64,000 bases of DNA, taken from NCBI GenBank assembly GCA_026400565.1, contig JAPLOV010000189.1:1-64000 (forward strand). The letters run 5' to 3'. A program made the position numbers and the translations under genes. Shown here one piece after another: positions 6,465-61,187 of this stretch; positions within the stretch are counted from its first letter, which is position 1, and each line of letters opens with the position of its first letter. The stretch is from Hyphomicrobiales bacterium. Lineage in GTDB: Bacteria; Pseudomonadota; Alphaproteobacteria; Rhizobiales; Beijerinckiaceae. The notes below the pieces were generated by a model. That model saw only the letters and a program-made list of their open reading frames with translations, had not been told where the DNA came from and did no database searches.

Positions 6465-7300
6465 TGGCGGGTCATGCAGACGAAGCCGCTGCGATCGGCG
6501 GCGGCAAATCGGCGGCAGTTGCAGCCTGGGATGCCGAGAACAGCGCGCGGCGGCGGTTGATCCTTATCGGTCGCATTGTTGTCGGCGTCGTTTTCGTCTC
6601 CTTCTGGGAGTTCTCGTCGGGTCGGCTGATCGACAAGCTTTTCGTATCGTCCCCGTCGGCGGTCTCGTCCCGGCTGTGGAAGTGGCTGCTTGAAGGCAGC
6701 TTGTGGAATCACCTGTCGATCACGCTCTATGCGACGGCGCTCGGCTTCATCATAGGCTCTCTGGTTGGTTTCGTCCTTGGGCTGCTGTTCGGCCGCTTTC
6801 AGACCGTTGCCGACATCTTCGATCCCTACATCACGGCGCTGTATTCGATCCCGAAGATCGCGCTCGCGCCCCTGTTCATTATCTGGTTCGGCATCGGCAT
6901 CGAATCCAAGGTCGCGGTGTCCGCCTCGATCGTTTTCTTCGTGGTGTTCCTCAACACCTATGCCGGCGTGCGCGATGTGAACCCGATCTTCGTGCATGCG
7001 ACACGCATCATGGGTGGCAACGAACTGCACGTGCTGCGCCATGTCATGATCCCGTCGGCAGCCTCATGGGTGATCACGGGGCTGAAGGTGTCGGTGCCCT
7101 ATGCGCTGGTCGGCACCGTCATCGGTGAGTTCATGTCGTCCAATCGCGGAATCGGCTTCATCATCGCGCAGGCCACCGGGCTGTTCGATACGACCTCCGT
7201 TTTCGCCGGACTTGTTCTGCTCGGCGTCGTGGGTGCGATCATCAATGTCGCGCTGCGCCATGCCGAGACATGGCTGCTTCGCTGGAAGGCTTCGAACTGA
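6464..7300 (+). CDS. ABC transporter permease (SsuC/TauC-like)
   Basis: Hydrophobic, BPD_transp_1-like; start overlaps stop of the ATPase. Confidence 0.93.
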   Translation: MAGHADEAAAIGGGKSAAVAAWDAENSARRRLILIGRIVVGVVFVSFWEFSSGRLIDKLFVSSPSAVSSRLWKWLLEGSLWNHLSITLYATALGFIIGSLVGFVLGLLFGRFQTVADIFDPYITALYSIPKIALAPLFIIWFGIGIESKVAVSASIVFFVVFLNTYAGVRDVNPIFVHATRIMGGNELHVLRHVMIPSAASWVITGLKVSVPYALVGTVIGEFMSSNRGIGFIIAQATGLFDTTSVFAGLVLLGVVGAIINVALRHAETWLLRWKASN

Positions 7301-7714
7301 GGTTGGCAGGTTTTCATCATCATGCGCCAGCCTGATCGCTGCCGGAATGGCGGCAGGACCGCAGTTCTCGCCCTGACTGGCCCGAGCCAGGCTCTCGGCC
7401 ATTGCGCCTGCCGACCGCGCTGCAGTGCACGCGCTCCAGCGTTGTCAATGGTTTGCCGCGCCTTTCTTGGAAAGTGATTCAGGCGATGCCGGTTGTGGTC
7501 CTGGCTCTTGCACCATGCATGCTCCGGTCATGATACGGCGAAAGCGGTCCGGCGCGGCGATGTTCGCTCTGCAGCCTGCGTGACGGGCTGGAAACATGGC
7601 GGATTGCCATGGCACTGAGTCCGGCAAGTCAGGCAACGCTCTGATATTGAAGACGTTTGATGGCCGAGGCCGACTTTTTGCCTGGCCGTCCTCGCCCGAT
7701 CGTCACGTTCCGGC

Positions 7715-8640
7715 AATATGCTCCTGTGCCGGCTCCACAGCGCGCACAACGGTCGCCGAACAGGTTGCTTCGGCGACATGGCGGTCGAGACGGAGCCGAG
7801 GTAGCGCCTGACGCCGCTGATCCGCGCGCCGACGATCCGATGGTCGACATGGTTGTTGCGGGCGAGGGTCAGCAGAACCTCCGCAGGGTCGGGGCCTTCC
7901 AGAACATGGAAGGTGAGCCTTTCGGCAGACAGCCGCATGGCGGCGGCCCAGTTCTTCAGCTCGACCAGCCGGTTCACATGGATCGAACTTCCGTCATTCC
8001 TGGTGAGCGTGCCGAGGCCGATCCGGGCCGTCTTGAGGACATTGACGCAGGCCAGCCTCGCCATGGGTCTTGCGTCCAGCAGGGTCGTTGCCAGTGACTG
8101 GATCGGCTCGGTGAGCGGGCCTCCTTCCGATGACAGATCGACCGCGACCATGATGATGGGGGCCGTGGTCGCGTGACGATAGCCTGCGGTCGTGCCGAAC
8201 GAGGCCGCGCCGGCATTCCAGAACCGGCATTCCAGAAACGGCCTGCCAGAAATGGCCTGCCAGAAAGTTCCGCAAGCGGTCGACCAGCTTGCGGTTGCTG
8301 CGCTCGGTGAGGGTGACATGCTCGGGGTGGCACACATCAAAGGCGAGTTGCCGCGCCGTGGGGTAGCGCTGCTCGGGTTTCACCTCGAGGCAGCGCAGGA
8401 TGATGTCTCGTTTGCGCGCAGCGATCGTTCGGCGGATGCGGCTTCGAGGATGTCGTTCCACGTGAGCGGAGTGCGGGCGCCGGCATGGACCAGCAGAAGG
8501 TCGCCTTCCTGGTGCGCCGGGGCGAGGCTGCCAGCACGGCATGGTGAGCGGCGGTCAGTTGCAACCGCGTCCAGTCGATCGCCGCTCGCCTGTTCTGGGT
8601 GCCTGGCGAGCCACAACGTGCATCTTCGGGATCTGGCATA
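7715..8640 (-). pseudogene. Remnant of a bifunctional Ser/Thr protein kinase–universal stress protein
   Basis: Kinase C-terminal fragment (HQEGDLLLVHAGARTPLTWNDILEAAS / RDIILRCLEVKPEQRYPTARQLAFDVCHPEHVTLTERS) and UspA domain (APIIMVAVDLSSEGGPL…VLEGPDPAEVLLTLARNNHVDHRIVGARISGVRRYLGSVS / VAEATCSATVVRAVEP) lie in successive different frames; kinase N-lobe missing. Confidence 0.8.
8210..8265. repeat. Four tandem 14-bp units inside the kinase/USP remnant
   Basis: CCGGCATTCCAGAA x2 followed by ACGGCCTGCCAGAA and ATGGCCTGCCAGAA. Confidence 0.97.
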
Positions 8641-8680
8641 GGGGCCTTGAGCCAGATGTCGTGGCAGCCGGATGCCGGCC

Positions 8681-9184
8681 TCAGCGCGGCTTGCGGCGGC
8701 GGCCGTAGAGTTCGAGCCGGTGGCGCACGATGTCATAGCCGAGTTCGGCGGCGATCTTGGCCTGAAGACGCTCGATCTCCTCGGAGGTGAACTCGATCAC
8801 CTGCCCGGTCTCGATGTCGATCAGATGATCGTGGTGCTGCTGGTCGGCGTGCTCGTAGCGCGAGACACCATCATCGAAGGCGTGCCGTTCGATGGCGCCG
8901 CGCTCCCCGAGCAGCTTCATGGTGCGGTATACGGTTGAAACCGCCAGCGTCGGGTCATGCGCGAAGGCACGTCCGAAGATGGTCTTCGCATCGGGATGGT
9001 CGTCGGCCTCCGACAGGATGCGCAGGATCAGCCGGCGCTGCTGCGTCATGCGCAAACCAGCCTGCTTCAACTCCGCCTCGAACAGCAAGGCCCGGTTCTG
9101 GGCCGTGGTGCGCGGCAAGGTCTGGGACAAGGTCTCGGGCATTCCTGTGGTCCCGCCTCTGGCTGCATCCATGGCCGTTTTCAT
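8681..9184 (-). CDS. Fur-family metalloregulator (Fur/Mur/Zur-type)
   Basis: LKQAGLRMTQQRRLILRILSEADDHPDAKTIF…STVYRTMKLL…HHDHLIDIETGQVIEF; start placed at 9184 because the 9214 start overlaps a candidate operator. Confidence 0.92.
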   Translation of the reverse strand: MKTAMDAARGGTTGMPETLSQTLPRTTAQNRALLFEAELKQAGLRMTQQRRLILRILSEADDHPDAKTIFGRAFAHDPTLAVSTVYRTMKLLGERGAIERHAFDDGVSRYEHADQQHHDHLIDIETGQVIEFTSEEIERLQAKIAAELGYDIVRHRLELYGRRRKPR

Positions 9185-9200
9185 AGCTTGCTCAGTCGCA

Positions 9201-9227
9201 TGTGCAAATACCAATGCTTATCGCACA
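9201..9227. promoter_or_regulatory. Candidate Fur/Mur operator in the fur–sitA intergenic region
   Basis: Imperfect palindrome TGTGCAAATA-ccaatgc-TTATCGCACA (8/10 arm matches) between divergent genes. Confidence 0.5.
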
Positions 9228-9283
9228 TCATTCGCAAAAGCGTTGACAGATGCGATCCAGTTGCAATAGCGTGCTGATGGGGC

Positions 9284-10291
9284 ATGATGCGGACAATGGA
9301 GCGAAGCATGATGGAGCCATCTGACCGGCGGCATGATGGGGCAGGGCGCAAGAATTCGCGTGGTCTGACCCGGCGCGGGCTGTTCGCGCCCCTTGCCTTG
9401 CTGGCGCTGGCGCCATGGGCTCTGTCCGGCAGGGCCATGGCGCAAGCGGGTCCGGCCCGGCGCGCGGCGAACGCACCTTTGCGTGTGGTCACGACCTTCA
9501 CCGTGATCCAGGACATCGCGCAGAATGTGGCCGGCTCGGCCGCCACCGTCTCCTCGATCACCAGGCCAGGCGCCGAGATCCACGACTATCAGCCCACGCC
9601 GCAGGATGTGGTGAAGGCACAATCGGCTGATCTGGTGCTGTGGAACGGCATGAACCTGGAACGCTGGTTCGAGCGCTTCTTCGATCAGGTCGGCAAGGTG
9701 CCGAGCGCGGTCGTGACCGACGGCATCGTGCCGCTGGCGATCAAGGATGGCCCCTATCAGGGCAAGCCGAACCCGCATGCCTGGATGTCGACCGCCAATG
9801 CGCTGGTCTATGTCGAGAACATCCGCAAGGCGCTGGCGGCTGCCGATCCGGCCAATGCCGCGACGTATGCCGCCAATGCCACCGCCTATGCGGCGCGGAT
9901 CAGGGCGCTGGAGGCACCGCTGAAGGCGCGCCTCGCGAAGGTGCCGGAGCAGCAGCGCTGGCTGGTCAGCAGCGAGGGGGCTTTCAGCTATCTCGCGGCG
10001 GATCTGGGCTGGCGCGAGGCCTATCTGTGGCCGATCAATGCGGAGGAGCAGGGCACCCCGCAGCAGGTGCGCCGCCTGATCGATCTTGTGCGGACCAACA
10101 AGGTGCCGGTGGTGTTCAGCGAGAGCACGATCTCAGACCGGCCAGCCCGGCAGATCGCCCGCGAAACCGGGGCCCGCTATGGCGGCGTGCTCTATGTCGA
10201 TTCGCTCAGCGCAGCCGCTGGGCCGGTCCCGACCTATCTCAAGCTTATCGAGACCACGGTCGAGACCATCGCGAAAGGCTTCGGAACCTGA
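9284..10291 (+). CDS. sitA: Metal (Mn/Zn/Fe) ABC transporter substrate-binding protein
   Basis: [19 protein letters not shown]…[28 protein letters not shown]…NPHAWMS; ZnuA/SitA family. Confidence 0.93.
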
Positions 10292-24949: not shown

Positions 24950-25538
24950 AGCCGTATGCGAGACCGGTGCCACAGGCTCCGTATCCCGAATCCGACAACG
25001 GGCGGATGAAGCGATGGACGACGCAAAGCAGTTGTTCAGGATCGTGATCGGCGCCTTCATGAGGGCCGATCTGGCTGCATCCGCCACACGTGACCTGCAC
25101 GACGATGGTCTGGCCGATACGCAGGTCTGCGTGATCGGTGCCGCGGCAGTGCCAGGTGATCCTGCAAGTGATCCTGCAAGTGATCCTGCAAGTGATCCTG
25201 CAAGTGGTCCTGCAAGTGAACCTGCACGTGGTCCTGCACGTGATCCCCGACGCTGCACGGAGCAGCGCCTGTTTGCCGGACAGATGGTCGAGGTCACGGC
25301 CCCGGAGCTGTTCGACCGGGTCTGGCAGGAAACCACCCAGGTTTCATCCAGCGACGCAGGCAAGACACTGGCACCCTGGATGACGCCGGGCCAGTCGAAG
25401 GCGATTCTCGACAGCCTTCGGAGCGGCGCGCTGGTGCTGCTGGTCAGTGCCTCCACCGCCACCGAGCAGGTCCGAGCCTCGCGAATCCAGCTCAACCATC
25501 ACCCGTCGATGGTGCAGGCCTACAGCTTCATGGCCTGA
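24942..25538 (+). CDS. Hypothetical protein with DPAS-type repeat linker, overlapping the fnr/fixK-like stop codon
   Basis: ATG at 24942 overlaps the regulator's TGA (ATGATTGA); the repeat tract stays in frame. No family recognised. Confidence 0.55.
   Translation: MIEAVCETGATGSVSRIRQRADEAMDDAKQLFRIVIGAFMRADLAASATRDLHDDGLADTQVCVIGAAAVPGDPASDPASDPASDPASGPASEPARGPARDPRRCTEQRLFAGQMVEVTAPELFDRVWQETTQVSSSDAGKTLAPWMTPGQSKAILDSLRSGALVLLVSASTATEQVRASRIQLNHHPSMVQAYSFMA
25155..25250. repeat. 12-bp tandem repeat, ~7 units plus a degenerate eighth
   Basis: (A/C)GTG(A/G)(T/A)CCTGCA units: ggtgatcctgca, agtgatcctgca x3, agtggtcctgca, agtgaacctgca, cgtggtcctgca, cgtgatccccga. Confidence 0.97.
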
Positions 25539-59658: not shown

Positions 59659-60022
59659 ATGATCCGGAAGGCTCTTGGAGATGGCTGGGCAATCTCTCTG
59701 CTCGTTTCGTTGCTGGGAGGCATCGCGCTGCTGCTGTGGTCGACGCGGCTGGTGCGCGCCAAGGACGATGTGCGGGCGGTGGAGCGGGCTGCCACCGAGA
59801 GCCATCTCAGGTGGCTGCGCGAAGGGGCGGTGGCAGCGATGGAGACATCGTCGCTGCTTCTCGACATCCTGCGCGATCACAAGCGCATCATCGCCCACCT
59901 GACCGATGTGGCCTATTCGATCCTCGAAGCCGATCCTCGAGGCCGATCCTCGAGGCATCGGGCGAACTCAAGGGCTGGCGGCTGGTACCGAGCCAGCCGG
60001 AGCCGGTACGCGCCACGTCCTA
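59659..60022 (+). pseudogene. Small membrane protein, frame disrupted by a 13-bp tandem triplication
   Basis: MIRKALGDGWAISLLVSLLGGIALLLWSTRLVRAKDDVRAVERAATESHLRWLREGAVAAMETSSLLLDILRDHKRIIAHLTDVAYSILEA; collapsing the repeat to one unit gives …YSILEASGELKGWRLVPSQPEPVRATS*. Confidence 0.65.
59918..59956. repeat. Three tandem 13-bp units
   Basis: CGATCCTCGAAGC, CGATCCTCGAGGC, CGATCCTCGAGGC. Confidence 0.97.
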
Positions 60023-60086
60023 GGGCTTTGTTCACCGTGATGCGCTTTAGTCCGGCGAAACGTCCATTGCCTGACAGGTTCCGCCC

Positions 60087-61187
60087 ATGATCGTTGACCG
60101 CCCCTTGTCCGTGATTGGCGCGATCAGCGGCACCTCGATGGACGGCATTGACGTGGCCTGGATCGAGACCGACGGACTGGCCCATGTCCGGCCGTTTGGC
60201 GGCGCGACGATGCCTTTTCCGCCAGGGCTCAGGGCCAAACTGAAGGCGCTGCTCGACGATGATCCCTCACGGGCCGAACGGGAGCCGCTGGTCGAACTTG
60301 AAGAGGCCGTGACCGATGCGTTCGGCGCGGCCATCGCCGCCTTCATGGAAGGCAAGGGTCTTGACGGCTCCGCAGTCGACCTGATTGGCCTGCATGGCCA
60401 GACCGTGTTTCACAGGCCGGAACGGCGCTTCACGCGCCAGCTCGGGCTGGGCCAGCGCATGGCGCGCCAACTGGGCGTGGCCGTTGTCGATGGCTTCCGT
60501 CTCGCCGATGTGGCGGCGGGTGGACAGGGCGCGCCGCTGGTTCCGCTCTACCAGGCCGCGCTTGCGGCAGGCTTGCCCAAGCCGCTGATGGTGCTGAACC
60601 TCGGGGGCGTCGCCAATGTCACCTATCTCGACAGCGATCAGATCATCGCTTTCGACACCGGGCCGGCCTCAGCGCTGATCGACGATTTCGTGGCGCGGCG
60701 GTTTGCCGTCGCCTTCGATGATGGCGGGCAACTGGCGCGTCAAGGCCGGGTCGATGCGTCCGTGCTGGCTGCCCTGATGGACAATCCGTTCTTTGCGGCA
60801 CCGGTGCCAAAATCGCTTGATCGCAATGACTTCCACGAACGGGCAAAGATCGTGAATCAGCTCGGCGACCACGATGCCGTGGCGACGCTGGCAGCCTTGA
60901 CGATCGAGTCCGTCGCAGCGGCGCTGGCGCATGTGCCGCGCGCGCCGCTGCGCTGGCTGGTGGCAGGTGGCGGGCGGCACAATGGCGTGTTCATGGGCGG
61001 GCTGGCAGCACGCCTCGGCGTGCCGGTCGAGCCTATCGAGACGTTGGGTCTCGATGGCGACCTCATCGAAGCGGAGTGCTTCGGCTATCTGGCTGTGCGC
61101 TCGGCGCGCGGGCTGCCCTTATCGCTGCCATCAACGACGGGTGTTCCGAAGCCGCTTTGTGGGGGCAGGCTGTGGCAGCCGGCGTGA
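60087..61187 (+). CDS. anmK: Anhydro-N-acetylmuramic acid kinase
   Basis: SVIGAISGTSMDGIDVAWIETDG…LIGLHGQTVFHRPE…NLGGVANVTYL…AFDTGPASALIDDF. Confidence 0.95.
   Translation: MIVDRPLSVIGAISGTSMDGIDVAWIETDGLAHVRPFGGATMPFPPGLRAKLKALLDDDPSRAEREPLVELEEAVTDAFGAAIAAFMEGKGLDGSAVDLIGLHGQTVFHRPERRFTRQLGLGQRMARQLGVAVVDGFRLADVAAGGQGAPLVPLYQAALAAGLPKPLMVLNLGGVANVTYLDSDQIIAFDTGPASALIDDFVARRFAVAFDDGGQLARQGRVDASVLAALMDNPFFAAPVPKSLDRNDFHERAKIVNQLGDHDAVATLAALTIESVAAALAHVPRAPLRWLVAGGGRHNGVFMGGLAARLGVPVEPIETLGLDGDLIEAECFGYLAVRSARGLPLSLPSTTGVPKPLCGGRLWQPA

Follow-up and report, generated by a model that had tools for sequence, protein, structure and literature searches.

A 14-bp tandem expansion in a decayed kinase-USP gene of a Hyphomicrobiales bacterium is probably an ordinary lesion, not a working switch

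A 64,000-nucleotide stretch of DNA from a Hyphomicrobiales bacterium (hereafter the window; contig C59 of the 3.44 Mb, 267-contig genome G000, rated 94% complete) carries a 14-bp tandem tract of four units on the minus strand at positions 8210-8265, where the corresponding genes of two sister species have two. The coding remnant in which the tract lies is, judged by position and sequence, the orthologue of the kinase-USP gene found in those sisters, designated G033 and G026. The tract very probably represents a neutral or gene-breaking tandem expansion within a pseudogene, an ordinary lesion and not a working switch. The initial annotation of this region had left the choice between a slippage switch and a lesion that killed the gene; of the two, the lesion is supported, in that the extra 28 bp are a frameshift, one scar among several and possibly the one that killed the gene.

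The four units follow one another on the plus strand in the order B, B, A', A, at 8210-8223, 8224-8237, 8238-8251, and 8252-8265, with the letters CCGGCATTCCAGAA, CCGGCATTCCAGAA, ACGGCCTGCCAGAA, and ATGGCCTGCCAGAA. On the coding (minus) strand, A is TTCTGGCAGGCCAT, A' is TTCTGGCAGGCCGT, and the two B units are TTCTGGAATGCCGG and TTCTGGAATGCCGG. The number of units and the span of the tract given in the initial annotation are exact. A and A' agree at 13 of 14 positions, the two B units at 14 of 14, A' and B at 11 of 14, and A-type and B-type units at 10-11 of 14. The order AA'BB, taken with these pair identities, fits two separate local 14-bp duplications, as had been proposed from the appearance of the two pairs, since one 28-bp duplication would yield ABAB. 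By TRF score alone (70), the tract is only moderately unusual: the best array, of any period up to 500, scored at least 70 in about 4 of 40 Markov-shuffled windows. It is the exact 28-bp excess over two orthologues, not this score, that identifies the tract as a true expansion. The genome contains 23 occurrences of GGCNTKCCAGAA, and all those elsewhere are single units, so a dispersed tandem element was rejected. A search with Rfam over positions 7000-10000 found no RNA family.

The joined tail, used as a query against 60 related genomes, found much its closest matches in G033 (89% identity) and G026 (86%). In named records, both are metagenome-assembled genomes, filed as Hyphomicrobiales (pond isolate) and Beijerinckiaceae, and further relatives there stand at 83% and below. 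Their kinase-USP genes are intact, with open frames of 482 codons (G033) and 487 codons (G026) in which PF00069 (Pkinase) precedes PF00582 (Usp) in one frame. At the tract, both are exactly 28 bp shorter than the window, with two diverged 14-bp stretches, in frame; those of G033 are TTCTGACGGGCCGG and TTCTGGAATACCGG, coding for FLTGRFWNTG. In the window, the kinase tail and the USP domain are read in different frames, which join once 28 bp are absent, as is the case in the sister genes. That two units would join the frames and four would lose them had been predicted from the window by itself, and the comparison with related genomes, suggested then as a check, bears the prediction out almost letter for letter: the reading expected for two units was RKLVDRLRNFLAGHFWNAGAASFGTTAGYRHATTAPIIMVAVDLSSEG, and that of G033 is RKPVGRLRNFLTGRFWNTGAASFGTTAGYRHATTAPIIMVAVDLSSEG. 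Two units are thus supported, on comparison with the intact sister genes, as the in-frame and ancestral state. The linker stretch is 93 bp long in G033, G026, and loci L045 and L046, and 90 bp long in L047-L049, always in frame.

Other lesions at the locus were mapped by piecewise alignment of the window with G033, with which the contig is co-linear on both flanks at 93.5% identity; the adjacent genes for a permease and Fur have open frames and are conserved. Farthest upstream, between 8588 and 8672, 83 bp without a match in G033 (8589-8671) replace about 1.35 kb (L041, about 7076-8425) that in G033 holds an Amdase-family gene and the 5' part of a phosphoesterase gene. A search of the window's genome for the Amdase-family gene, run without a positive control, returned no match. 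Next comes a calcineurin-like phosphoesterase remnant (8412-8588, minus strand) with a 1-bp deletion at 8528/8529. A second large deletion, of about 1.09 kb (L041 5807-6897), has its junction at 8405-8411 on the minus strand; this loss, at 8404/8412, removes the kinase-USP gene as far as codon ~249, start codon included, and fuses the kinase tail to a fragment of the phosphoesterase gene next to it. The kinase C-terminal tail remnant (ILRCLEVKPEQRYPTARQLAFD...RNFL; 8266-8404, minus strand, 88% identical to G033 in DNA) preserves no more of the kinase domain than its final ~19 residues, as the profile match in G033 spans residues 17-268 and the window keeps about residue 250 onward. On the far side of the tract, the USP-domain remnant (7786-8225, minus strand) is open in its own frame and scores 24.5 bits against Pfam Usp, versus 56.7 in G033. 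Its glycine-rich loop has been altered from GARGSGG to GARISG by 1-bp and 2-bp deletions at 7816-7823 (minus strand), and another 1-bp deletion, at 7777/7778 on the same strand, shifts the final ~24 codons of the USP part (7706-7777) into another frame. What the window copy retains, a kinase tail and a damaged Usp domain that do not share a frame, is not a Pkinase-Usp fusion.

Close relatives have an intact orthologue, and the window copy has several disabling lesions (the deletion of about 1.09 kb that takes the start with it, the gain of 28 bp, and the losses of 1 bp and of 1 and 2 bp); both argue for a pseudogene. No other full-length kinase-USP copy was found in G000, where the search gave only a weak USP-level match. 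The dN/dS ratio of the remnant against G033 is 0.20 overall and 0.27 in the USP part, compared to 0.08 for the gene between G033 and G026, 0.03 for the neighbouring permease, and 0.12 for Fur. The raised ratio fits a recent loss of constraint. That it stays well below 1 counts against the pseudogene reading, and would make the loss recent or mean that part of the sequence remained under constraint during most of the period after divergence.

We propose that in the ancestor a calcineurin-like phosphoesterase gene and, after it, a Ser/Thr kinase-USP fusion gene formed an intact pair, and that the linker between the kinase and USP domains (FLAGRFWNAG) is encoded by two 14-bp stretches that resemble each other by chance. 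In the window's lineage, one duplication of each stretch would have added 28 bp and shifted the frame; the most likely mechanism is slipped-strand mispairing at replication. Besides this gain, the locus has undergone the two large deletions (about 1.09 kb and about 1.35 kb) and no fewer than four small ones, in an order that we can only infer, and the remnant that they left probably has no function.

The remnant might have been re-used, as a short stand-alone USP protein with an internal start and a 5' region that includes the tract. A 270-residue open frame (7528-8340) does span the USP part and has a possible TTG start, so that a short USP product is conceivable from the sequence, and dN/dS is still below 1. 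Against this, the fall in the Usp score, the damage to both the glycine-rich loop and the C-terminus, and the loss of the start and upstream region that belonged to the gene make such re-use very unlikely. We judge it similarly improbable that the tract and the breakage of the gene are artefacts of assembling a metagenome bin. The assembly is in 267 contigs, and the single-base lesions could partly be assembly errors, but the co-linearity of the contig with G033 on either side, the open and conserved permease and Fur genes adjoining the locus, the substitutions that the extra tract units bear on their own, and a second relic in the window with the same kind of lesion all speak for a real sequence.

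Least probable, to the point that we give it hardly any weight, is a phase-variation switch, in which 14-bp slippage would turn the kinase-USP protein on (two or five units) and off (three or four). In its favour, 14 bp is not divisible by 3, a tract of two units brings the frame back, and phase variation driven by tandem tracts is described for other bacteria in PMC5320596 and PMC12817950; but no tract copy number restores the kinase, since the start codon and the kinase domain are deleted, leaving nothing to switch, and a second frameshift lies downstream in the USP domain. A phase-variable gene would be otherwise intact and restored by one tract length, which this gene is not. The initial annotation, which raised the idea, had noted that additional lesions would make a switch pointless, and the loss of the start and kinase domain, the 1-bp frameshift at the USP C-terminus, and the glycine loop damage are lesions of that kind. 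The mutual divergence of the A and B units is, moreover, unlike that of a fast-mutating tract, and the linkers of intact relatives, 93 or 90 bp in collections with one genome per species, show no out-of-frame change in copy number.

Decay of the kinase-USP pseudogene extended to its neighbour. Among 36 loci found in named genomes, there are 32 (L043-L072, L074, and L075, in alpha- and betaproteobacterial records and one Thermoanaerobaculia record) in which the phosphoesterase immediately precedes the kinase-USP gene and shares its strand. In the remaining four, one contig starts inside the gene and three match the kinase part only, at 26-31% identity. The arrangement looks like a conserved kinase/phosphoesterase pair, whose two genes the window has lost together.

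A parallel case lies elsewhere in the window. At 59659-60090 there is a relic of a Na/Pi symporter gene that is open over 578 codons in G033. The window copy has an internal loss of about 1.36 kb at 59747/59748 and a plus-strand tract (59918-59956) in which a 13-bp unit is present three times, versus once in G033 (+26 bp); the G026 match is likewise 26 bp shorter than the window copy. The symporter relic thus repeats the pairing of a large deletion with a two-unit, out-of-frame tandem gain. In sampled contigs, arrays with a period not divisible by 3 come to 21 for G000 (399 kb), 4 for G033 (322 kb), and 3 for G026 (200 kb), with a Fisher p of about 0.0009 for the pooled counts, in a non-random sample that includes the window and, for several contigs, sequence chosen from earlier matches (for G000, L091-L110 plus the window). 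Several G000 arrays reach 4-7 copies, for example 13 bp x 6.6 at L107 11770-11855. A 96 kb alignment shows seven tandem insertions in G000 and none in G033, a count biased by the choice of contig C58 after many arrays had been seen there, and hence no independent proof. These sampled contigs suggest that short tandem arrays are more frequent in G000 than in its sisters, and the excess may reflect either a higher rate of short duplication or simply more unconstrained DNA. It is possible, though we hold the view only tentatively, that the window's species has an unusually high genome-wide rate of tandem duplication of about 11-17 bp, with the tract as one product; the grounds are the two relics with two-unit out-of-frame gains and about four times as many out-of-frame arrays per base as in the sisters, in the sampled contigs. 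RecJ and exonuclease VII (XseA) limit slippage in E. coli. Loss of RecJ or XseA was rejected as a cause of the arrays, as both are present in all three genomes (G000, G033, and G026). As a separate observation, positions 25156-25246 of the window hold a 12-bp, in-frame tandem array of 7.6 copies (GTGATCCTGCAA) that is open in several frames.

The tract gene resembles ordinary bacterial pseudogenes in its multiple disabling lesions, its raised dN/dS, the failure to find an intact paralogue, and the intact orthologues in sister species. Nothing essential differs, except that the lesions include a tandem gain of 14 bp in two steps instead of a 1-2 bp indel. With phase-variation contingency loci, such as the Neisseria tracts (PMC5320596), it shares out-of-frame tandem units in a coding region; in contrast to such loci, the gene is not intact, the units are diverged, and the intact close relatives compared show no out-of-frame length variation. 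Compared with the Pkinase plus Usp fusions of Proteobacteria, whose domain order G033 and G026 share, the window copy is an orthologous remnant from which almost the entire kinase domain and some of the USP domain are gone. As a switch, then, the tract is without importance, the gene being dead. The case does illustrate, clearly and with good polarity, that weak similarity between two coding stretches can give rise to tandem duplication that disrupts a gene. Should the excess of short arrays hold across the genome, this lineage would be useful for studying what raises the rate of short duplications in bacteria.
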